Origin: Microcaldota archaeon
Lineage (GTDB): Archaea; Micrarchaeota; Micrarchaeia; Micrarchaeales; CABMGC01
NCBI GenBank assembly: GCA_021803945.1
Contig: JAJZKW010000003.1
Coordinates: forward strand, 38,075-73,177
Direction of reading: 5' to 3'
Length of the DNA: 35,103 nt
Position 1 is the first letter of the stretch. The number at the start of each line of letters is the position of its first letter. Positions 1,558 to 15,031 of the stretch are shown piece after piece. A program made the translations under genes and the position numbers. The notes below the pieces were generated by a model, which was not told the DNA's origin, made no database searches, and was given only the letters and a program-made list of their open reading frames with translations.

Positions 1558-4527
1558 TTACTTCACTGCGGCTGCCTGGAGCAGGTCGTTTATGAACTGG
1601 TTCCCTGCCTGCACTGTCTGGTTTGCCGTGTATCCAGCCACAAGTATGCGGTTTGTTCCGTATGCCTGAACCACTACAGAACCCGTGTTGAAGCTTGAAT
1701 TCAAGCTTGGGTTCTGCGCGAATACCTGCGCAGATACTGAGTTCACGAACTTGCTTCCCACCAATATGAGCGTTGCAGCGCTGTTTGCATTGCTGTCAAG
1801 CACTACCAGAGGCGTTGTCGCAGTGTTCAGCGATACTGGAACCACTGCCTGTGACACTGATGGAGTCGCAGTCACGTTCGCAAGGCCTGACACTGTGCAT
1901 GTTGAGGTCTTTACTGATACCCCTCCACATGTTGCAGTCACGTTGCTGACGGTAAGGTTGGAGAATCCAGGCACTGCCTGTCCTATTCCGACCGGTCCTA
2001 CGCTCTTCTCGCCTGATGTGCTGTTCACCACTGTTGAGGATGGGCTCACCACGAACTGCAGCGTGTCAACCACCTTTGCCATGTTTATTGTTACACTTGA
2101 AGGCGATATTGCTGCAACCTTGCTTCCGCGCTCTGTTACGAAGCCTGTTGGCGCATTCACAGTCGCCCCAGTGGATGCCTGGTAGGTCATGTTGTTCCTT
2201 GTGCCTGTTGCAGACTGGTTCAGCTGGAATGCAAAGTTCTGCGCTCCTCCTGTGGTGCTGTTCTGTATTCCGAATGACAGCGCATCCTGCGATGTTGTTG
2301 ATCCAGGGACGTTGTATTCAGGCACATTGACAGTGAAGTACTTCTGTGAGGTGGCTGGAACGCCATTTGGCTCAGTTGCAGCCGTCAAAGTAAGTCCTCC
2401 ACTTATCGATGGCTGGCCATTCTGTTGGTTGTATGTCACAGAAGGGTTTGTAGCTACCCACATGTACTGGTATCCAGACTTTGGATACAGAAGCACTGGA
2501 GCAATTGGCTGGTAGTTTGCAATTACGTTTGTTGTGGCTGTTGGAACTTGTCCTACTACTACGTTTGCAGCCAGGTATGGCAGCGCAGTGCTGAAGTACA
2601 TGTTAGTTATGTTGTAGAACGACTGAGACACTGGTAAGGTATTTGTTGCACCTGTACCAAGAGCATATACCTGCACTGACGTAGTTGAGGTCGACGTCGC
2701 TGTGTTGGACGCGTATCCAGTCAATGTCAATGTGACTGGAGAGGTTGACACTATTATGTTGGCGTTGCCAGCAGTCGAATATACGACTACGTTTGTCGGC
2801 AGTAGAGTGTTCCCTACGCCTACTGAGAACCCGTTGCCAGGTACGTTGAGCTCATATGGAGTCAGATCGTATGTCAGTGTGCTGCCGATCTGCCCTGCGT
2901 AGCTGAACGCATTCTGGATCTGGCTGGTCACTGTGAGCTCCTGTGCGGGTTGGTCTGTTATGTTTGTAGGCTTTGAGATTCCTGTTCCTGCAGTGCCTGT
3001 GTTCTGTATTGACAGGCCTCCCTGCGTGGACGCAGAGAACTGCAGAGGATCGTAGTTCGTTCCGAGAGTGTCTCCAACGAAGTTCACCTTGTATGCAGTG
3101 AAGTTCGGGGATACGAAGCTGAAGCTCTGTCCAGGCGTCAGGGTTGTAGGGGACTGGTTGTATATTACCAGGCTCTGCAACTGTGTTGCCTTGCTGCCTG
3201 CCGTTGAAGTCCCGTTTGTCCAGTATATGTATGACCTCCATCCTGGAGCATCTGTGGTGTTGAAGACCCCTCCGTTCGTTATGTTCACCACGTTGGAGTA
3301 GAGCTTCATCTTTGCCCACTTCTGGTATGCATAGAGTCCTGCGAAGGTCTGGTTGACGTTCACATAGACGTTGTGCTTACCCACAGAGAATTTGGTTATT
3401 GTGCGCGGCGAGAGCTGCGTAACGTTTGTCAGGTTTCCTGCGTAGTAGATGTCCACTGCTGCAGGGCTGATTCCGTTTGCAGGCTGACCCAAGTCTGTAA
3501 GCTGCACTGTGAAGTTGTTGCTGGTTATGTTGTGCCCTACGTATACTGTCTGGTACGGGGTCAGTGAGGCTGCAAGTGAAAGCGAGCCTCCTGCGACTGC
3601 ATTTGTAGATGATGTAGTAGCAGATGGGTTTGTGTATGCGAGTATTGTCCAGTTCCTTCCCAGGAGCTGTATTGCCGCATTGTTCACTGAATTTGTCCCT
3701 GTGCTCATCGCTCCGAGGGAACCGTAGTTGAATGGCTCTGTGATCGGTTTGTTGAATACCACCTGGTATGCACCGCCCACGTCGAAGACAGCGAATGTCT
3801 GCGATGGAACCGCATTCAGTTGCTGGTCATATACAGGGAATCCTGTTATCCAGAGATTCTCACTCTCGCCGTTAGGCCCGAAGTTGTTCAGCAATGAGGA
3901 GAGTTGCGCAGATGTTACTTGCAATAGGTTATCGAATCCACCTGAGGTGAATGTCGAGAAGCTTAGTCCCCCTCCGTTGTTGGAGGTAACCACAGTCCTC
4001 ACTGGAGGCGTTGCAGTCCCTGAATTGAACGGTGATGCCATTGGAGATGACTGTATTGCCAGAGGGTATGTCTCTGGGAATGCATAGTTGCCTGAACTCT
4101 GGAGCGTCTTTGTACTTGAAGGCGAACCGAGCTGCACTCCTCCGTTGAGCACTGATCCTATCAATGCGGTGAATGAGTACGATCCTGCAGGTCCTGTGAA
4201 TCCCCTCTCATTGAACCAGACCTGCTGGTTTGACAATGTGCATGAAGGAGTTGTCACAACGCACTTCACGTTGCTCAATCCTGTCGGGGTTGCTGTTACG
4301 TTTACACTTGTGAATGCAAGGTTTCCGAGCACTGCGGCGATGTTTGCTGCAACCACTCCGTCGCTAGGCTGTGCCTGCGAACCCACTACCACCTGAACTA
4401 CAGGTTGACCCTGGTTGTTCACTATTGGAATGTTGCTCCAGGTTACACCCCCTGATCCTGCGAATGCAAGACCCACTAACAAACTTGCTGCGACAGCTGC
4501 GATTCTCTTTGCGTTTATGGATTTCAT
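1558..4527 (-). CDS. S-layer protein paralog 1 (989 aa)
   Basis: Signal peptide MKSINAKRIAAVAASLLVGLAFAG. N-terminal pattern IPIVNNQGQPVVQVVVGSQAQPSDGVVAANIAAVLGNLAF and C-terminal pattern ATLILVGSKFVNSV...NRILVAGYTANQTVQAGNQFI resemble archaeal S_layer_N / S_layer_C domains. Rich in N-glycosylation sequons. Confidence 0.85.
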   Translation of the reverse strand: MKSINAKRIAAVAASLLVGLAFAGSGGVTWSNIPIVNNQGQPVVQVVVGSQAQPSDGVVAANIAAVLGNLAFTSVNVTATPTGLSNVKCVVTTPSCTLSNQQVWFNERGFTGPAGSYSFTALIGSVLNGGVQLGSPSSTKTLQSSGNYAFPETYPLAIQSSPMASPFNSGTATPPVRTVVTSNNGGGLSFSTFTSGGFDNLLQVTSAQLSSLLNNFGPNGESENLWITGFPVYDQQLNAVPSQTFAVFDVGGAYQVVFNKPITEPFNYGSLGAMSTGTNSVNNAAIQLLGRNWTILAYTNPSATTSSTNAVAGGSLSLAASLTPYQTVYVGHNITSNNFTVQLTDLGQPANGISPAAVDIYYAGNLTNVTQLSPRTITKFSVGKHNVYVNVNQTFAGLYAYQKWAKMKLYSNVVNITNGGVFNTTDAPGWRSYIYWTNGTSTAGSKATQLQSLVIYNQSPTTLTPGQSFSFVSPNFTAYKVNFVGDTLGTNYDPLQFSASTQGGLSIQNTGTAGTGISKPTNITDQPAQELTVTSQIQNAFSYAGQIGSTLTYDLTPYELNVPGNGFSVGVGNTLLPTNVVVYSTAGNANIIVSTSPVTLTLTGYASNTATSTSTTSVQVYALGTGATNTLPVSQSFYNITNMYFSTALPYLAANVVVGQVPTATTNVIANYQPIAPVLLYPKSGYQYMWVATNPSVTYNQQNGQPSISGGLTLTAATEPNGVPATSQKYFTVNVPEYNVPGSTTSQDALSFGIQNSTTGGAQNFAFQLNQSATGTRNNMTYQASTGATVNAPTGFVTERGSKVAAISPSSVTINMAKVVDTLQFVVSPSSTVVNSTSGEKSVGPVGIGQAVPGFSNLTVSNVTATCGGVSVKTSTCTVSGLANVTATPSVSQAVVPVSLNTATTPLVVLDSNANSAATLILVGSKFVNSVSAQVFAQNPSLNSSFNTGSVVVQAYGTNRILVAGYTANQTVQAGNQFINDLLQAAAVK

Positions 4528-5056: not shown

Positions 5057-8000
5057 TTACTTCACTGCGGCTGCCTGGAGCAGGTCGTTTATGAACTGGT
5101 TCCCTGCCTGCACTGTCTGGTTTGCAGTGTATCCAGCCACAAGTATGCGGTTTGTTCCGTATGCCTGAACCACTACAGAACCCGTGTTGAAGCTTGAATT
5201 CAAGCTTGGGTTCTGCGCGAATACCTGCGCAGATACTGAGTTCACGAACTTGCTTCCCACCAGTATGAGCGTTGCAGCGCTGTTTGCATTGCTGTCAAGC
5301 ACTACCAGAGGCGTTGTTGCAGTGTTCAATGAGACTGGAACTACTGCCTGCGACACTGATGGAGTCGCAGTGACGTTCGGGCTTGATATTGTGCATACCG
5401 AAGTCTTTACCGAGATCCCTCCGCACGTTGCGGTTACGTTGCTCACTGTGAGGTTGGAGAATCCAGGCACTGCCTGGCCTATTCCGACCGGCCCTACGCT
5501 CTTCTCGCCTGATGTGCTGTTCACCACTGTTGCAGATGGGCTCACCACGAACTGCAGCGTGTCAACCACCTTTGCCATGTTTATTGTTACACTTGAAGGG
5601 GATATTGCTGCAACCTTGCTTCCGCGCTCTGTTACGAAGCCTGTTGGCGCATTCACTGTCACTCCTGTAGACGACTGGTAGGTCATGTTGTTCCTTGTGC
5701 CTGTTGCAGACTGGTTCAACTGGAACCCGAAGTTCTGCGCTCCTCCTGTCGTGCTGTTCTGTATTCCGAATGACAGCGCATCCTGGGATGTTGTTGATCC
5801 AGGGACGTTGTATTCAGGCACATTGACAGTGAAGTACTTCTGCGAGGTGGCTGGAACGCCATTTGGTGCAGTTGCAGCCGTCAAGGTAAGTCCTCCGCTT
5901 ATCGATGGTTGGCCATTCTGTTGGTTGTATGTCACAGAAGGACTTGTAGCTACCCACATGTACTGGTATCCGGACTTTGGATACAGAAGCACTGGACTGA
6001 TTGGCTGGTAGTTTGCAATTACGTTTGTTGTGGCTGTTGGAACTTGTCCTACTACTACGTTTGCAGCCAGGTATGGCAGCGCAGTGCTGAAGTACATGTT
6101 AGTTATGTTGTAGAACGACTGGGACACTGGCAGGGTGCTTCCTGGAAGTGACGATACAGTAGTGCTGGCAGTTATAGTGTTGGTTGCATATGATGCCGGG
6201 GCCGAATTGTGCGCTACCCCGTTAAATGTCTGCGTTATTGTGGCTGTTATTGAAGGCGATGCAGGGTTGCCTGTCAGTCCTGATAGGGTTATTGCAGTTA
6301 TATTGTAGAAGTTTCCTGCAGTTGACGACAAGGTCTGGGGGGTTGTTGCTGACGTTATGGAGTAGGTCTGTGTCTGTGCTGCTCCTGGCACTGCGTACAC
6401 AGTATTGGATGCAGGCGTAGTTATGGAATTTCCTGTTATTGCTACTGAAAGCGGATGTGTTCCTGAAATCCATGAATACGAGCCGCTGAGAGACAATTGC
6501 AGGGTGTTAGACCCGGATTCAGTGTCGTTTATTGCGTTGGCAGATATTGAGAATGATGACGATGATGCTACGCTGCCTCCAAGGTTAGATACCTGCACTG
6601 ACGTAGTTGAGGTCGACGTCGCTGTGTTGGACGCGTATCCAGTCAATGTCAATGTGACTGGAGAGGTTGACACTATTATGTTGGCGTTGCCAGCAGTCGA
6701 ATATACGACTACGTTTGTCGGCAGTAGAGTGTTCCCTACGCCTACTGAGAACCCGTTGCCAGGTACGTTGAGCTCATATGGAGTCAGATCGTATGTCAGT
6801 GTGCTGCCGATCTGCCCTGCGTAGCTGAACGCATTCTGGATCTGGCTGGTCACTGTGAGCTCCTGTGCGGGTTGGTCTGTTATGTTTGTAGGCTTTGAGA
6901 TTCCTGTTCCTGCAGTGCCTGTGTTCTGTATTGACAGGCCTCCCTGCGTGGACGCAGAGAACTGCAGAGGATCGTAGTTCGTTCCGAGAGTGTCTCCAAC
7001 GAAGTTCACCTTGTATGCAGTGAAGTTCGGGGATACGAAGCTGAAGCTCTGTCCAGGCGTCAGGGTTGTAGGGGACTGGTTGTATATTACCAGGCTCTGC
7101 AACTGTGTTGCCTTGCTGCCTGCCGTTGAAGTCCCGTTTGTCCAGTATATGTATGACCTCCATCCTGGAGCATCTGTGGTGTTGAAGACCCCTCCGTTCG
7201 TTATGTTCACCACGTTGGAGTAGAGCTTCATCTTTGCCCACTTCTGGTATGCATAGAGTCCTGCGAAGGTCTGGTTGACGTTCACATAGACGTTGTGCTT
7301 ACCCACAGAGAATTTGGTTATTGTGCGCGGCGAGAGCTGCGTAACGTTTGTCAGGTTTCCTGCGTAGTAGATGTCCACTGCTGCAGGGCTGATTCCGTTT
7401 GCAGGCTGACCCAAGTCTGTAAGCTGCACTGTGAAGTTGTTGCTGGTTATGTTGTGCCCTACGTATACTGTCTGGTACGGGGTCAGTGAGGCTGCAAGTG
7501 AAAGCGAGCCTCCTGCGACTGCATTTGTAGATGATGTAGTAGCAGATGGGTTTGTGTATGCGAGTATTGTCCAGTTCCTTCCCAGGAGCTGTATTGCCGC
7601 ATTGTTCACTGAATTTGTCCCTGTGCTCATCGCTCCGAGGGAACCGTAGTTGAATGGCTCTGTGATCGGTTTGTTGAATACCACCTGGTATGCACCGCCC
7701 ACGTCGAAGACAGCGAATGTCTGCGATGGAACCGCATTCAGTTGCTGGTCATATACAGGGAATCCTGTTATCCAGAGATTCTCACTCTCGCCGTTAGGCC
7801 CGAAGTTGTTCAGCAATGAGGAGAGTTGCGCAGATGTTACTTGCAATAGGTTATCGAATCCACCTGAGGTGAATGTCGAGAAGCTTAGTCCCCCTCCGTT
7901 GTTGGAGGTAACCACAGTCCTCACTGGAGGCGTTGCAGTCCCTGAATTGAACGGTGATGCCATTGGAGATGACTGTATTGCCAGAGGGTATGTCTCTGGG

Positions 8001-8449
8001 AATGCATAGTTGCCTGAACTCTGGAGCGTCTTTGTACTTGAAGGCGAACCGAGCTGCACTCCTCCGTTGAGCACTGATCCTATCAATGCGGTGAATGAGT
8101 ACGATCCTGCAGGTCCTGTGAATCCCCTCTCATTGAACCAGACCTGCTGGTTTGACAATGTGCATGAAGGAGTTGTCACAACGCACTTCACGTTGCTCAA
8201 TCCTGTCGGGGTTGCTGTTACGTTTACACTTGTGAATGCAAGGTTTCCGAGCACTGCGGCGATGTTTGCTGCAACCACTCCGTCGCTAGGCTGTGCCTGC
8301 GAACCCACTACCACCTGAACTACAGGTTGGCCCTGGTTGTTCACTATTGGAATGTTGCTCCAAGTTACACCTCCTGATCCTGCGAATGCAAGACCCACTA
8401 ACAAACTTGCTGCGACAGCTGCGATTCTCTTTGCGTTTATGGATTTCAT
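5057..8449 (-). CDS. S-layer protein paralog 2 (1130 aa)
   Basis: First ~620 aa identical to paralog 1. Carries an extra cassette SNLGGSVASSSSFSIS...TTVSSLPGS where paralog 1 has YALGTGATNT. Same C-terminal S-layer-like domain. Confidence 0.85.
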   Translation of the reverse strand: MKSINAKRIAAVAASLLVGLAFAGSGGVTWSNIPIVNNQGQPVVQVVVGSQAQPSDGVVAANIAAVLGNLAFTSVNVTATPTGLSNVKCVVTTPSCTLSNQQVWFNERGFTGPAGSYSFTALIGSVLNGGVQLGSPSSTKTLQSSGNYAFPETYPLAIQSSPMASPFNSGTATPPVRTVVTSNNGGGLSFSTFTSGGFDNLLQVTSAQLSSLLNNFGPNGESENLWITGFPVYDQQLNAVPSQTFAVFDVGGAYQVVFNKPITEPFNYGSLGAMSTGTNSVNNAAIQLLGRNWTILAYTNPSATTSSTNAVAGGSLSLAASLTPYQTVYVGHNITSNNFTVQLTDLGQPANGISPAAVDIYYAGNLTNVTQLSPRTITKFSVGKHNVYVNVNQTFAGLYAYQKWAKMKLYSNVVNITNGGVFNTTDAPGWRSYIYWTNGTSTAGSKATQLQSLVIYNQSPTTLTPGQSFSFVSPNFTAYKVNFVGDTLGTNYDPLQFSASTQGGLSIQNTGTAGTGISKPTNITDQPAQELTVTSQIQNAFSYAGQIGSTLTYDLTPYELNVPGNGFSVGVGNTLLPTNVVVYSTAGNANIIVSTSPVTLTLTGYASNTATSTSTTSVQVSNLGGSVASSSSFSISANAINDTESGSNTLQLSLSGSYSWISGTHPLSVAITGNSITTPASNTVYAVPGAAQTQTYSITSATTPQTLSSTAGNFYNITAITLSGLTGNPASPSITATITQTFNGVAHNSAPASYATNTITASTTVSSLPGSTLPVSQSFYNITNMYFSTALPYLAANVVVGQVPTATTNVIANYQPISPVLLYPKSGYQYMWVATSPSVTYNQQNGQPSISGGLTLTAATAPNGVPATSQKYFTVNVPEYNVPGSTTSQDALSFGIQNSTTGGAQNFGFQLNQSATGTRNNMTYQSSTGVTVNAPTGFVTERGSKVAAISPSSVTINMAKVVDTLQFVVSPSATVVNSTSGEKSVGPVGIGQAVPGFSNLTVSNVTATCGGISVKTSVCTISSPNVTATPSVSQAVVPVSLNTATTPLVVLDSNANSAATLILVGSKFVNSVSAQVFAQNPSLNSSFNTGSVVVQAYGTNRILVAGYTANQTVQAGNQFINDLLQAAAVK

Positions 8450-9195: not shown

Positions 9196-9537
9196 ATGAT
9201 GCCGAACATAGACCCCAGGCAGCTCAAGAGGATGATGGACAGCATGGGCATAAAGAGCACCGAGATAGAGGCCGAGAGGGTGGTTATACAGGGGAAGGAC
9301 AGGGACATAGTGATAGAGAATCCGCAGATAACTGCGATAGACGCGCAGGGCAGCAGGAGCTTCCAGATATCAGGGACGGTGCGCGAGGTCGGGAAGGCCG
9401 CCGCAGTGGAGATAAGCGAAGATGACGTGAAGATTGTCTCGGAGCAGTCTGGCGTCAATGACCTTGGGCTGGTGAGGAAGGCCCTTGAGGAGTCTGGAGG
9501 GGACATAGCAGGCGCGATAATCAGGCTGAAGCAATAG
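9196..9537 (+). CDS. nac: Nascent polypeptide-associated complex protein (archaeal NAC)
   Basis: NAC domain plus C-terminal UBA-like (VRKALEESGGDIAGAIIRLK). TATA-like gtataaaatc just upstream. Confidence 0.9.
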   Translation: MMPNIDPRQLKRMMDSMGIKSTEIEAERVVIQGKDRDIVIENPQITAIDAQGSRSFQISGTVREVGKAAAVEISEDDVKIVSEQSGVNDLGLVRKALEESGGDIAGAIIRLKQ

Positions 9538-10147
9538 AAGTAGCGGTCTTCTGCGCATGGCAGCTGCGCAGGAGCCCCTTTACCCTGGTTTTTATCCTTG
9601 GGCCATATGGTGCAAGATAGCCTTCTAATTTCGAATTGGCAATATGCTTCCTGAGCAGGAGGAGGACATCGTCCCTTATGTAGTGGCCGAAGTATACAAG
9701 ATCTATCAGCGTCTTTTCATAATCCGATACTGGGATCCAGTAGTCGTAGTAGCGAATAAATTCATAGCCGAAAAAGAACTCTTTGCTTATGTGATTGATT
9801 AGGTAGTTTCCATTTCCGAACTTTCTCGTTCCGGTCCTCACATTCCTGCAGGTAATCACTACAGGATTTGTATTCTGCTCCCAGAGTTTCCTTATGGTGA
9901 GCGCATTCTCCAGCCCGTAATAGAAAGGCCTGAACCCGAAACCGGCAACAGTTATGTCGTCATGGAAGGTGTACACTCCCTTTGTGATGCGCCTTATTTC
10001 GCCTTTTTTCATGAGATAGTTCACCATCCTCTTTAGGTAAGCTGGGCGCATTCCATTGAGTCCTAGTGAGACCCTAAGGTCGGTAAGGCTGAAGACTGGG
10101 AACTTTGCATCATTAAAGTTCTTTCTTACAAACTCCATATATTTCAT
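9521..10147 (-). CDS. AbiEi-like HTH protein (putative type IV antitoxin / regulator)
   Basis: N-terminal winged-HTH-like FSLTDLRVSLGLNG..YLKRMVNYLMKKGEIRRITKGVYTF; overlaps the neighbouring nucleotidyltransferase gene by 4 nt. Confidence 0.65.
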   Translation of the reverse strand: MKYMEFVRKNFNDAKFPVFSLTDLRVSLGLNGMRPAYLKRMVNYLMKKGEIRRITKGVYTFHDDITVAGFGFRPFYYGLENALTIRKLWEQNTNPVVITCRNVRTGTRKFGNGNYLINHISKEFFFGYEFIRYYDYWIPVSDYEKTLIDLVYFGHYIRDDVLLLLRKHIANSKLEGYLAPYGPRIKTRVKGLLRSCHAQKTATSIASA

Positions 10148-10806
10148 GCAAATCTGCCTCTTATGTATTTGACCATCGTATCGAAAGACGGAATCGGGCC
10201 GGAGTACAATATGGCAACTAGGCCTTCTTCGTTTACCGGAGGCGCAATGCTATTCAAGAATGAGAGGACTTTGGGCTTCAGTTTGGTGTTCTCTGCAGCG
10301 TCTGCGTAATTGCTGAGTATATAGATGTCGTATATATCGCGTATGAACCGCCTGTCTGTATAAGCCTCTATCTTTTCCAGTATGAGATCTCCTGGAGACA
10401 GCGTAAGGATCTCAGTATACGTCCCGTCCACTTTCTCAAACCTTTGGAGTATTGGCTTAAGCGCGGTTTTTGTGTAGTTTATTTCCACCTTCATGTATAC
10501 GCCATTAATTGACAATCCTATAAATACAAGATTTCCTGTATCCTTTATCTTCTCCACCTTCACTCCGTGAGCAGGCGCAACTCTAGATATACTCTCCTTG
10601 AGTCTTTCCAGCTGCTCCTTTGAGGTCAGGTATATGTCAATGTCGTTTGAGAACCTGCCGCCTCCATAGCATCGCCATATTGCAGTTCCACCGTGCATTA
10701 TTATTGTGTTGTCCGTCTGGTACAGGATATCGACTGCGTCGTCCTGAAATGATGCAAGCTCTCTGTATTCTCTCTTTTTTAGCATGTTTATTATGGGAGG
10801 TTTCAT
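10144..10806 (-). CDS. AbiEii-like nucleotidyltransferase (putative toxin)
   Basis: MHGGTAIWRCYGGGRFSNDIDIYL matches the GG-TA..y...R.S.DiD nucleotidyltransferase signature. Confidence 0.7.
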   Translation of the reverse strand: MKPPIINMLKKREYRELASFQDDAVDILYQTDNTIIMHGGTAIWRCYGGGRFSNDIDIYLTSKEQLERLKESISRVAPAHGVKVEKIKDTGNLVFIGLSINGVYMKVEINYTKTALKPILQRFEKVDGTYTEILTLSPGDLILEKIEAYTDRRFIRDIYDIYILSNYADAAENTKLKPKVLSFLNSIAPPVNEEGLVAILYSGPIPSFDTMVKYIRGRFA

Positions 10807-11836: not shown

Positions 11837-13399
11837 CTATCCATATTTGTAGAATAATATAAATGTGGTTGAATAGAGCATCGCATACCAGATCAGCCAC
11901 ACTGCGCCGTATATGTTGTTTATTATAAGGGCTAGGAAGCCGAGGATGAAGAGGCTAGACGAGAAGGTGGTCTCTGAGAGAGTTGTCCTGATTGTGTTCA
12001 GCGTCCTGCCCCTTATGCCAGGCGCCTTGCCTCCCTTTGACCATCCCATTGAAGGGTACATGTCCAATGAAGCGGCTATAGCTGCCTTGGTCCTTATGAA
12101 GGAAAGGGCGAAATTGAGGAGGAAGACCATGAAGCCCTTCCTAAGCGACTTGAAGTGCACCTTTGTCATTATCGTAGGCGCGAGTATGGATATTGCGAAT
12201 GTGCTTATCCCCAGTATCTCTATCGTCGTCGCTATGTACTTCGCATCAAGGAGCTGCTGTATGGTCACTCCGGAATGGGACGAGGCGGCGAAGACCACTG
12301 CCACCGACACCATTGCGAATAATATAAGCACTATCGAGATGTAGTTGAGTCCGGCTCCGTGGGTTATGTAGTCAACAGTGGACATCATCGGCATCTTCTT
12401 GCCGCCATTGCCACTCCTGAGCCTCCTTATGAAGTACATGAGAAACTGCGTGTCTCCGTAATTGTACCTCCACTGCTGCTTTGCGAGGTTGGAGAAGGTG
12501 AGTATCGGCTTCCCGTATGCGTACACCTTAGGCAGGTACAGGCTGCTGAAGTCGTGCATGTCGGACTCGAAGCTGAAGAAGGTGTCCTCTATTATGTACT
12601 CCGGGAACCCTCCGACCTTCTCTACCGCAGACCTGCGCAGAAGTCCGCACGAGCCTGCAAATATGGCCGTATTGTTAAGCGCCCTTGAAGGCTGTATGAA
12701 CTTGAAGAAGAACGCGTCGAAGAGGTCGACCGTGTCAGAGAAGAACGTGCCCTTGAAGTACCTCTTCTCTGTCTGTATGTACGACAGTTTCCTGTCGCTG
12801 AAGTACGGGAGAAGGTCGAGTAGGAAGTTCTGGTCGGTAAGGTACTCGTCGTAATCGAAAACAGCTATGAACTCTTCGCTGGACTGCGCCATCATGTTGT
12901 TGAGCGCGCCTGCCTTGAAGCCCTTCCTGTCGTCCCGGTGCAGGTATTTTATCCCGTTGGATGCGGCGAACGCCCTGAGCTTCCGCCCCGTGCCCGCGTC
13001 TGTGGAGTCGTCGAGGAGGTAGAAGGACATCTTGTCCGCCGGATAGTTCATCGTCATGAGCCTGAGCATGTTGCGCTGCACGATTGCCGCATCCTCGTTG
13101 AACACAGGCATCACGAGCGCCACTGTCGGCTTGTATGTGAGCGGTTTCAGCATCCTCGTTATACCCTCAAGATACTTGTCGTAGAACACAGACCTGTAGT
13201 ACGAGTAAGAGGTGAAGATGTTGAAGAATCCTGACACTGCGGAGAGTATGAGGAATACCGTTGCTATCGCATACATCGCTATTGTGTGCGCGCCGAAATA
13301 TATCAGGTACAGCGAGAAGGATATGCCGGATATTGTAAGCAGGATGAACATGACGACGACTAATAGCCTCAGCGCTGGGCTCTTTGTTAGATTAGGCAT
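11837..13399 (-). CDS. Polytopic family 2 glycosyltransferase (cellulose-synthase-like)
   Basis: VALVMPVFNEDAAI, YLLDDSTDAGT, FDYDEYLTDQNFL, QQWRYNYGD motifs with flanking TM helices. Confidence 0.85.
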   Translation of the reverse strand: MPNLTKSPALRLLVVVMFILLTISGISFSLYLIYFGAHTIAMYAIATVFLILSAVSGFFNIFTSYSYYRSVFYDKYLEGITRMLKPLTYKPTVALVMPVFNEDAAIVQRNMLRLMTMNYPADKMSFYLLDDSTDAGTGRKLRAFAASNGIKYLHRDDRKGFKAGALNNMMAQSSEEFIAVFDYDEYLTDQNFLLDLLPYFSDRKLSYIQTEKRYFKGTFFSDTVDLFDAFFFKFIQPSRALNNTAIFAGSCGLLRRSAVEKVGGFPEYIIEDTFFSFESDMHDFSSLYLPKVYAYGKPILTFSNLAKQQWRYNYGDTQFLMYFIRRLRSGNGGKKMPMMSTVDYITHGAGLNYISIVLILFAMVSVAVVFAASSHSGVTIQQLLDAKYIATTIEILGISTFAISILAPTIMTKVHFKSLRKGFMVFLLNFALSFIRTKAAIAASLDMYPSMGWSKGGKAPGIRGRTLNTIRTTLSETTFSSSLFILGFLALIINNIYGAVWLIWYAMLYSTTFILFYKYG

Positions 13400-13555
13400 T
13401 TGATCTTCAGTTTAGGTAATGTCCAGACAGGTATATATTACTTTTATTGCCTGCCGCGAACCTTTTTGCAGGCTGAGGAGGGCTTTTCATCGAAGCTCAT
13501 TTCCAGATCCCTGGGCTTCATATTTATATACTTCTGAGCTGGATACTCCTTGTGC

Positions 13556-13688
13556 GCCGGGATGGCAGAATCCGGTATCGCGCCAGTGAACCATCGGCGA
13601 AACTCGAGATCTGGTGGCCTTCGGGCTTTCAGGGTTCAAAATCGGCCTCTCTGCAGCTGAAAGGCTTATGGAAATCCCTGTCCCGGCG
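13556..13688 (+). tRNA. tRNA-Ser(CGA) with two predicted introns (13587..13601 and 13641..13674)
   Basis: Acceptor GCCGGGA/TCCCGGC with G73; anticodon stem CCAGA/TCTGG around CTCGAGA only after removing 15 nt; variable arm GGCC-TTC-GGGCT; T-stem CAGGG/CCCTG with TTCAAAT loop only after removing 34 nt. TATA-like tatttatata at 13521..13530. Confidence 0.85.
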
Positions 13689-13783: not shown

Positions 13784-15031
13784 TCACGCGTCAGGCCGGG
13801 GTGCTGATATGTCCTCCAGCTTCAGGTCGTCGGACTTTGTTATCTCGTTGATCAGTATCGTTGCATATGAGCCAGCAGGTATCGAGAACTCCATCATTAC
13901 AGTGTCCTCGCCTGCCGAGCAGACCATATCCTTTACCGGCGATATCAGGGCCCTGAACGCGCCCTTGGTACTGAGCTCCGGCATTCCCTTTATCCTGAAG
14001 CTTTCGCTGCTCAGCTCCAGCCTTTCAAGCATACCCCTTTCGTATTCGTCGATATTCTCCTGGCGCGTCTCATAGCCTATGAGGTTTCCTACAGGTATGT
14101 CGCCTTCCCTGCCTACGCTCCGCATGTCTGGGAATCCGTAGGGGTTCTTGCCGCACCTCAGCTCTGAGCCGAGGTCCTCCTCCCTTATCCTCTCCTGCAG
14201 CGCAGCGTTGAATATGAGGGATTGCACAGAGTGCACCAGCATCAGAAGCATTCCCCTTGGCAGCTTCCTGAGCGAATTGGCATAATTGTCGTATCTCGAC
14301 AGGTATTCGATAACCATGCGCTCGGTCCTCAGGCTGGACGGGAAGTACTCTAGCGCTGCCTTGAAATCCCTTTCAGATCCGAGCCTCTCCCTTGCGGCTA
14401 TCGACTCCGGATTAGACTCCAGCCTTGTGTCGGTAAGCAGCGTCATTACCGCTCCCTCGAAGTCGCCGCGCAGTATATGCATGCCCACGTCGAAGTTGTT
14501 CAGGCGCATCCCGAACCTCTGCCTGTCGTAGTAGTTCGGCATCCTGGAGTCCAGCTCTTCCGCAGTCTCCTCTGATGCGCCTGCAGAGCTGCAGCCCCTT
14601 ATGGCGACTGAGAACGAGTTTCCGAGGTTCTCTCCCATCTCTGCTCCGGTTGAGCTCCTCCACGCCCCGTTTATCGATATGTCCTTAAGCCTTATGCCCC
14701 GCAGCTGCTCCGGAGAGGCCCCGAATACGCTGGCTATCTGCACTGACACAGATTTCCTATCCTTGGAGCCGCAGTAGCCTACGGACTTCTTACCCCTGCC
14801 TGCGATCTTCGCTATCCTGATGAGCGCCTGCGCCGTGTCCCAATCCTTTTTCTGCAGGATGAATTTTGTGAATTTCCCTGACACGTCTTCTGCCTCGCCT
14901 GCAGCCTCGGGCGAGTATTGGATGCCTTCCCTGAGCACGACGCCTCCCTTCGTTATCTCCCTGACTACAAAATCCTCTGGCGAGTCCTTTATCCGGCCTC
15001 CTGTTCCCTTGGTGCGCGAAAGGGTTAGCAT
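13784..15031 (-). CDS. truD: tRNA pseudouridine(13) synthase TruD
   Basis: GRIKDSPEDFVVREI, KKDWDTAQALIRIAK, VGYCGSKDRKSVSVQ, NYYDRQRFG motifs. Confidence 0.9.
   Translation of the reverse strand: MLTLSRTKGTGGRIKDSPEDFVVREITKGGVVLREGIQYSPEAAGEAEDVSGKFTKFILQKKDWDTAQALIRIAKIAGRGKKSVGYCGSKDRKSVSVQIASVFGASPEQLRGIRLKDISINGAWRSSTGAEMGENLGNSFSVAIRGCSSAGASEETAEELDSRMPNYYDRQRFGMRLNNFDVGMHILRGDFEGAVMTLLTDTRLESNPESIAARERLGSERDFKAALEYFPSSLRTERMVIEYLSRYDNYANSLRKLPRGMLLMLVHSVQSLIFNAALQERIREEDLGSELRCGKNPYGFPDMRSVGREGDIPVGNLIGYETRQENIDEYERGMLERLELSSESFRIKGMPELSTKGAFRALISPVKDMVCSAGEDTVMMEFSIPAGSYATILINEITKSDDLKLEDISAPRPDA

Follow-up and report, generated by a model that had tools for sequence, protein, structure and literature searches.

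Can a tRNA gene that is interrupted twice, and that common finders pass over, still be a working gene? This question is raised by positions 13556-13688 of the window, the whole 35,103-nucleotide (nt) stretch analysed here from contig JAJZKW010000003.1 of a Microcaldota archaeon. A preliminary description, made from the letters of the DNA, had proposed at this place a tRNA-Ser(CGA) gene with one intron in the anticodon stem and another in the T-loop. The source genome comprises 902 kb on 26 contigs and is 94% complete, and relatives with the same gene carry the label Candidatus Micrarchaeota, in agreement with the micrarchaeal origin suggested earlier. We conclude that a functional gene for tRNA-Ser(CGA), with two protein-spliced introns, almost certainly lies here; no other gene for this tRNA was found in the genome. 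Its parts are as follows (BHB, bulge-helix-bulge).

13556..13586, plus strand: exon 1, with the acceptor 5' strand, the D-arm and anticodon-stem positions 27-30; conserved in relatives
13581..13584, plus strand: CGCC, 5' strand of the central helix of intron 1, pairing with GGCG at 13596-13599
13587..13601, plus strand: intron 1, TGAACCATCGGCGAA, 15 nt, between tRNA positions 30 and 31; relaxed BHB or bulge-helix-loop
13596..13599, plus strand: GGCG, 3' strand of the same helix and the invariant part of intron 1
13602..13640, plus strand: exon 2, with the remaining anticodon arm, the variable arm, the T-stem 5' strand and the T-loop up to 59
13605-13607, plus strand: anticodon CGA, within exon 2
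13635..13638, plus strand: TTCA (T-loop 54-57), 5' strand of the central helix of intron 2, pairing with TGGA
13641..13674, plus strand: intron 2, ATCGGCCTCTCTGCAGCTGAAAGGCTTATGGAAA, 34 nt, between tRNA positions 59 and 60
13669..13672, plus strand: TGGA, 3' strand of the same helix, in 4-bp pairing with TTCA
13675..13688, plus strand: exon 3, with T-loop position 60, the T-stem 3' strand, the acceptor 3' strand and discriminator G73

After removal of 13587-13601 and 13641-13674, the locus gave an 84-nt tRNA with an intact cloverleaf, which ARAGORN called as tRNA-Ser(cga), so the identity first proposed held. The unspliced gene was missed by ARAGORN, whose only call across the window was a tRNA-Val, and no tRNA was found at the locus by Rfam at E<=1. 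When intron 2 alone was removed, ARAGORN still called Ser(cga), with a 15-nt intron; when intron 1 alone was removed, no ARAGORN call was made. The same splicing rule led to a tRNA-Ser(cga) call for all 75 distinct orthologues (by ARAGORN for the window 84-mer). Because both ARAGORN and Rfam miss the gene, tRNAs are likely to be under-annotated in Micrarchaeota genomes. An Rfam match to sR41 on the opposite strand of the locus (E=0.94) was disregarded as chance.

Splice sites of the two introns in the window and its relatives

Intron 1 is a relaxed motif (bulge-helix-loop or HBh'-like) and not a full BHB, because it has an inner helix of 2 bp only (GA/TC around ACCA) and no more than one outer pair, G24-C32. 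The coordinates, helices and bulges given beforehand for both introns proved exact to the base. The BHB-like logic ascribed to both sites stood for intron 2, which appears to offer a full BHB. At intron 1 it stood for the central helix and for the two bulges of 3 nt (AG^T and AA^A), whereas that site as a whole offers only the relaxed form. In the free fold of the unspliced RNA, the central helix of intron 1 was favoured, with a pair probability of 0.71-0.75.

With a search pattern requiring GGCG, intron 1 was detected at this same position in 76 of the 197 relatives, and the same pattern placed the gene on 74 contigs of a GTDB collection. A looser pattern, allowing any insert of 0-30 nt, brought up no introned orthologue without GGCG. 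Among the 75 distinct orthologues the intron measures 11-18 nt, and its sequence is unconstrained outside GGCGAA. Of 66 distinct introns, 27 had an inner helix of at least 2 bp; shuffling gave 6.4 on average, and 0 of 2000 shuffles reached as high a count.

Relatives without intron 1 show exactly the predicted junction, CCAG/ACTCGAGATCTGG. The empty 30/31 site, CCAGACTCGAGATCTGG, was seen in G064 and G086 of the window's family, in G048 and G053 of a second family (f2) of the same order, and in G186, G189 and G264 of another family of the class (f7); the loci of G064, G086, G048, G053 and G189 were inspected over their full length. Since G064 and G086 share a genus with G017 and G074, in which intron 1 is kept, the change at 30/31 must be recent there. 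The reality of both introns is shown by dozens of relatives, some with neither and some lacking one. A minimal intron conserved at one site in two families, with empty sites, is somewhat unusual, as is its occurrence at that very site in two Hadarchaeota.

It might be argued that the endonuclease excises only intron 2, as a strict BHB, and that the 15-nt insert at 30/31 is removed otherwise or retained. The missing proper outer helix and the 2-bp inner helix of the window's intron 1 would suit this alternative, as would the introns of relatives, which at 30/31 go down to 11 nt and then have no inner helix. However, GGCG and the 3' bulge AA are kept in virtually all introns at this site (a single GGCGAG occurs, in G027), an insert at 30/31 prevents the anticodon stem from forming, and cleavage of relaxed motifs by the ARMAN-2 endonuclease has been reported (PMC6379350; PMC4033280). 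Excision of intron 2 only is thus very unlikely.

Intron 2 appears to form a full BHB: the complete T-stem (5 bp) serves as its outer helix, the bulges read AA^A and AA^T, and its inner helix is imperfect. A run of A lets its boundary slide by up to 3 bases, so the exact cut rests on the BHB register. Intron 2 was present in 39 of the 75 distinct orthologues, with lengths of 14-45 nt, and the other 36 have an intact T-loop, TTCAAAT or TTCGAAT. A complete 4-bp central helix at offset 0 was found in 33 of the 39; shuffled introns gave a mean of 0.7 and a maximum of 4 (500 trials), and shifting the register by 1 to 4 bases left only 0 to 4 complete helices. The 3' intron strand in these 33 reads TGAA, TGGA or TGAG, each of which pairs fully with TTCA. 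Such A-U and G-U alternatives are what would be expected if selection maintains the pairing to an exon that does not vary.

Exon identity between the window and the 38 orthologues with both introns had a median of 92%, while identity to the same orthologues was 44% for intron 1 (minus GGCGAA) and 53% for intron 2; therefore, the locus is not a product of chance. The same figures count against a decayed tRNA-Ser pseudogene carrying two random insertions, a reading that would account for a broken gene missed by common finders. Moreover, all 12 of 12 acceptor and T-stem pairs are intact in all 75 orthologues, and the insertions sit at identical sites in many genera, where their pairing with the exon is fixed. 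The search for a separate tRNA-Ser(CGA), envisaged in the preliminary description as a test, found no second copy elsewhere in the 94%-complete genome. A pseudogene is hardly credible. An assembly error or chimeric contig, conceivable in a metagenome-assembled genome with a relative (G131) that is a mixed bin with five RtcB genes, has a negligible probability, since dozens of assemblies, made independently and from many sites, show the same gene structure.

Several observations weigh against a functional gene with two spliced introns. First, 94% completeness leaves room for a second tRNA-Ser(CGA) copy. Second, in 6 of the 39 relatives with intron 2 the 4-bp helix at offset 0 is not perfect: four have it displaced by one base, with a bulge of 4 nt, and the other two, from one genus, fit neither arrangement. 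Third, the intron 2 BHB is not favoured in the free fold, with a probability of about 0.01, and forcing it costs 2.3 kcal/mol. Because it is not favoured by unconstrained folding, this BHB may form co-transcriptionally, after removal of intron 1, or on the enzyme. The folding result speaks to the limits of energy models, not to the strength of the comparative evidence.

Splicing machinery and proposed processing

A single endonuclease gene was found in the genome (C8:32701-33183, minus strand). Its product matches the ARMAN-2 epsilon2 enzyme (PDB 4fz2, 9w2k) end to end (E=4e-150): in a 384-residue segment, positions 7-384 align to 10-387 of 4fz2_A as a single chain, alphaN-alpha-betaC, collinear with ARMAN-2. 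All seven residues of known role are identical, namely Y236, H251 and K282 (catalysis), R275 and W384 (bulge grip), and Y160 and K161 (ARMAN-specific loop) (PMC12397907). By this alignment the genome encodes a three-unit epsilon2 splicing endonuclease, as the preliminary description had anticipated, and we found no sequence-level difference from the enzyme of Candidatus Micrarchaeum acidiphilum ARMAN-2 (4FZ2, 9W2K). The relaxed motif of intron 1 fits such an enzyme, because relaxed motifs are removed efficiently only by (alpha-beta)2 and epsilon2 enzymes (PMC6379350). The RtcB ligase is also present (E=2e-163).

The sequences show the anatomy of the gene, conserved splice sites, relatives with empty sites and the presence of both enzymes; for transcription, cleavage, ligation and their order, we infer the following course. 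The precursor would probably be cut at both introns by the genome's own epsilon2 tRNA-splicing endonuclease, made of two protomers, each alphaN-alpha-betaC, in which the ARMAN-specific loop would allow relaxed substrates. Intron 2 would be offered as a full BHB, flanked on the outside by the T-stem, and intron 1 as a 4-bp central helix closed by a mini-hairpin only; with no more than these two elements presented, removal of intron 1 would depend on a broad-specificity enzyme. The exons would then be joined by RtcB.

In four relatives, RtcB carries an in-frame insertion of ~500 amino acids near profile position 50 (L233, L234, L235 and L236, in G026, G014, G036 and G017, respectively). These insertions are probably inteins.

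Distribution of the introns and comparison with known systems

The relatives form a natural series with both introns, either one or neither, while the endonuclease type is constant within the group. Intron 2 occurs in most genera of the window's family; it is not in G017/G064, G026 and G034, and it is absent from the second family save the mixed bin G131, whose conserved T-loop intron was discounted because of the mixture and the five RtcB genes. In G189, from another family, a T-loop insertion is present and intron 1 is absent. Intron 2 therefore comes and goes, since its distribution needs about four changes by parsimony on the RtcB tree; with 27 rows, this tree resolves too weakly to decide between gain and loss. 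The series suits tests of gain and loss and of the smallest epsilon2 substrate (11 nt).

In two Hadarchaeota genomes, tRNA-Ser(CGA) (L102:2910-3007 and L147:1845-1943) is likewise interrupted at exactly 30/31, by an intron of 13-14 nt that contains GGCGAA, although the tRNA body differs. Those two Hadarchaeota have a single endonuclease, alpha4-like by size (open frames of 183-189 amino acids). One could speculate that selection has long preserved the 11-18 nt insert at 30/31 as a minimal intron, and that it is not simply a tolerated insertion, although we consider this rather unlikely. Its selective advantage may lie, for example, in a precursor hairpin serving modification or ordered folding. 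If so, the Hadarchaeota occurrence would reflect deep shared ancestry or repeated hot-spot insertion.

Interrupted tRNA genes of this type are already known in archaea, and the present gene is a well-supported further case. A total of 673 non-canonical introns were counted in 217 archaeal genomes (PMC8450103). Positions 30/31 and 59/60 are both among the known non-canonical ones, and multi-intron tRNA genes have been described (PMC4090602); ARMAN-1 and -2 are listed among the archaea with multi-intron tRNAs (PMC4033280). Because these positions and the ARMAN multi-intron tRNAs have been published, tRNA-Ser(CGA) does not represent a new type, and its two non-canonical introns are less exceptional than had been implied at the outset.

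Like the multi-intron tRNAs of Thermoproteales, Nanoarchaeum, Korarchaeum and ARMAN-1/2, the gene has several introns at listed positions and appears to combine strict and relaxed BHB motifs; the tRNA species and the lineage are different. Introns of Thermoproteales were reported as recently spread by transposition (PMC4090602), whereas intron 1, which is extremely short, has stayed at a single site throughout an order. The logic of a 4-bp helix and 3-nt bulges is shared with canonical archaeal introns at 37/38, from which the present gene differs in the positions 30/31 and 59/60, in having two introns and in the relaxed first motif. The general picture, in which broad-specificity endonucleases go with scattered tRNA introns, is unchanged.

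Canonical introns also occur in the source genome, for example in Ala(TGC), Tyr, Ser(TGA) and Trp. Additionally, non-canonical introns were noticed in the T-loops of Leu(CAA) (L042, C20:16371-16468; 13 nt) and Ala(GGC) (L044, C18:23854) and in the D-loop of Leu(TAA) (L045, C20:5923; 21 nt), and the spliced form of each was called as the expected tRNA. An intron-containing tRNA-Ile(TAT) (L251:99-212, contig C11) has its last ~27 bases repeated about 640 bp downstream, at 843-872. Small minus-strand open reading frames, HicA/HicB-like by eye, lie between the repeats, an arrangement that suggests a tiny tRNA-targeted insertion.

Neighbouring genes and further observations

The tRNA-Ser(CGA) gene lies on the plus strand, in the gap separating two minus-strand genes, and CCA is not encoded at its 3' end. 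Its surroundings are as follows.

11837-13399, minus strand: glycosyltransferase gene, the upstream neighbour
13523..13530, plus strand: TATA-like box TTTATATA, a candidate archaeal box A, some 26-33 nt before the 5' end of the tRNA
13784-15031, minus strand: TruD, tRNA pseudouridine synthase D, directly downstream on the opposite strand

Among 81 distinct orthologue upstream regions, A+T content peaked at 0.8-0.88 between -35 and -26. By eye, TruD is also apparent downstream of tRNA-Ser(CGA) in several relatives (e.g. L063, L068 and L069).

Elsewhere in the window, two adjacent large genes of an S-layer family (PF05124), at 1558-4527 and 5057-8449, have near-parallel open reading frame layouts and are apparently a tandem duplication. 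Positions 9521-10147 and 10144-10806 hold an AbiEi/AbiEii-like type IV toxin-antitoxin pair.
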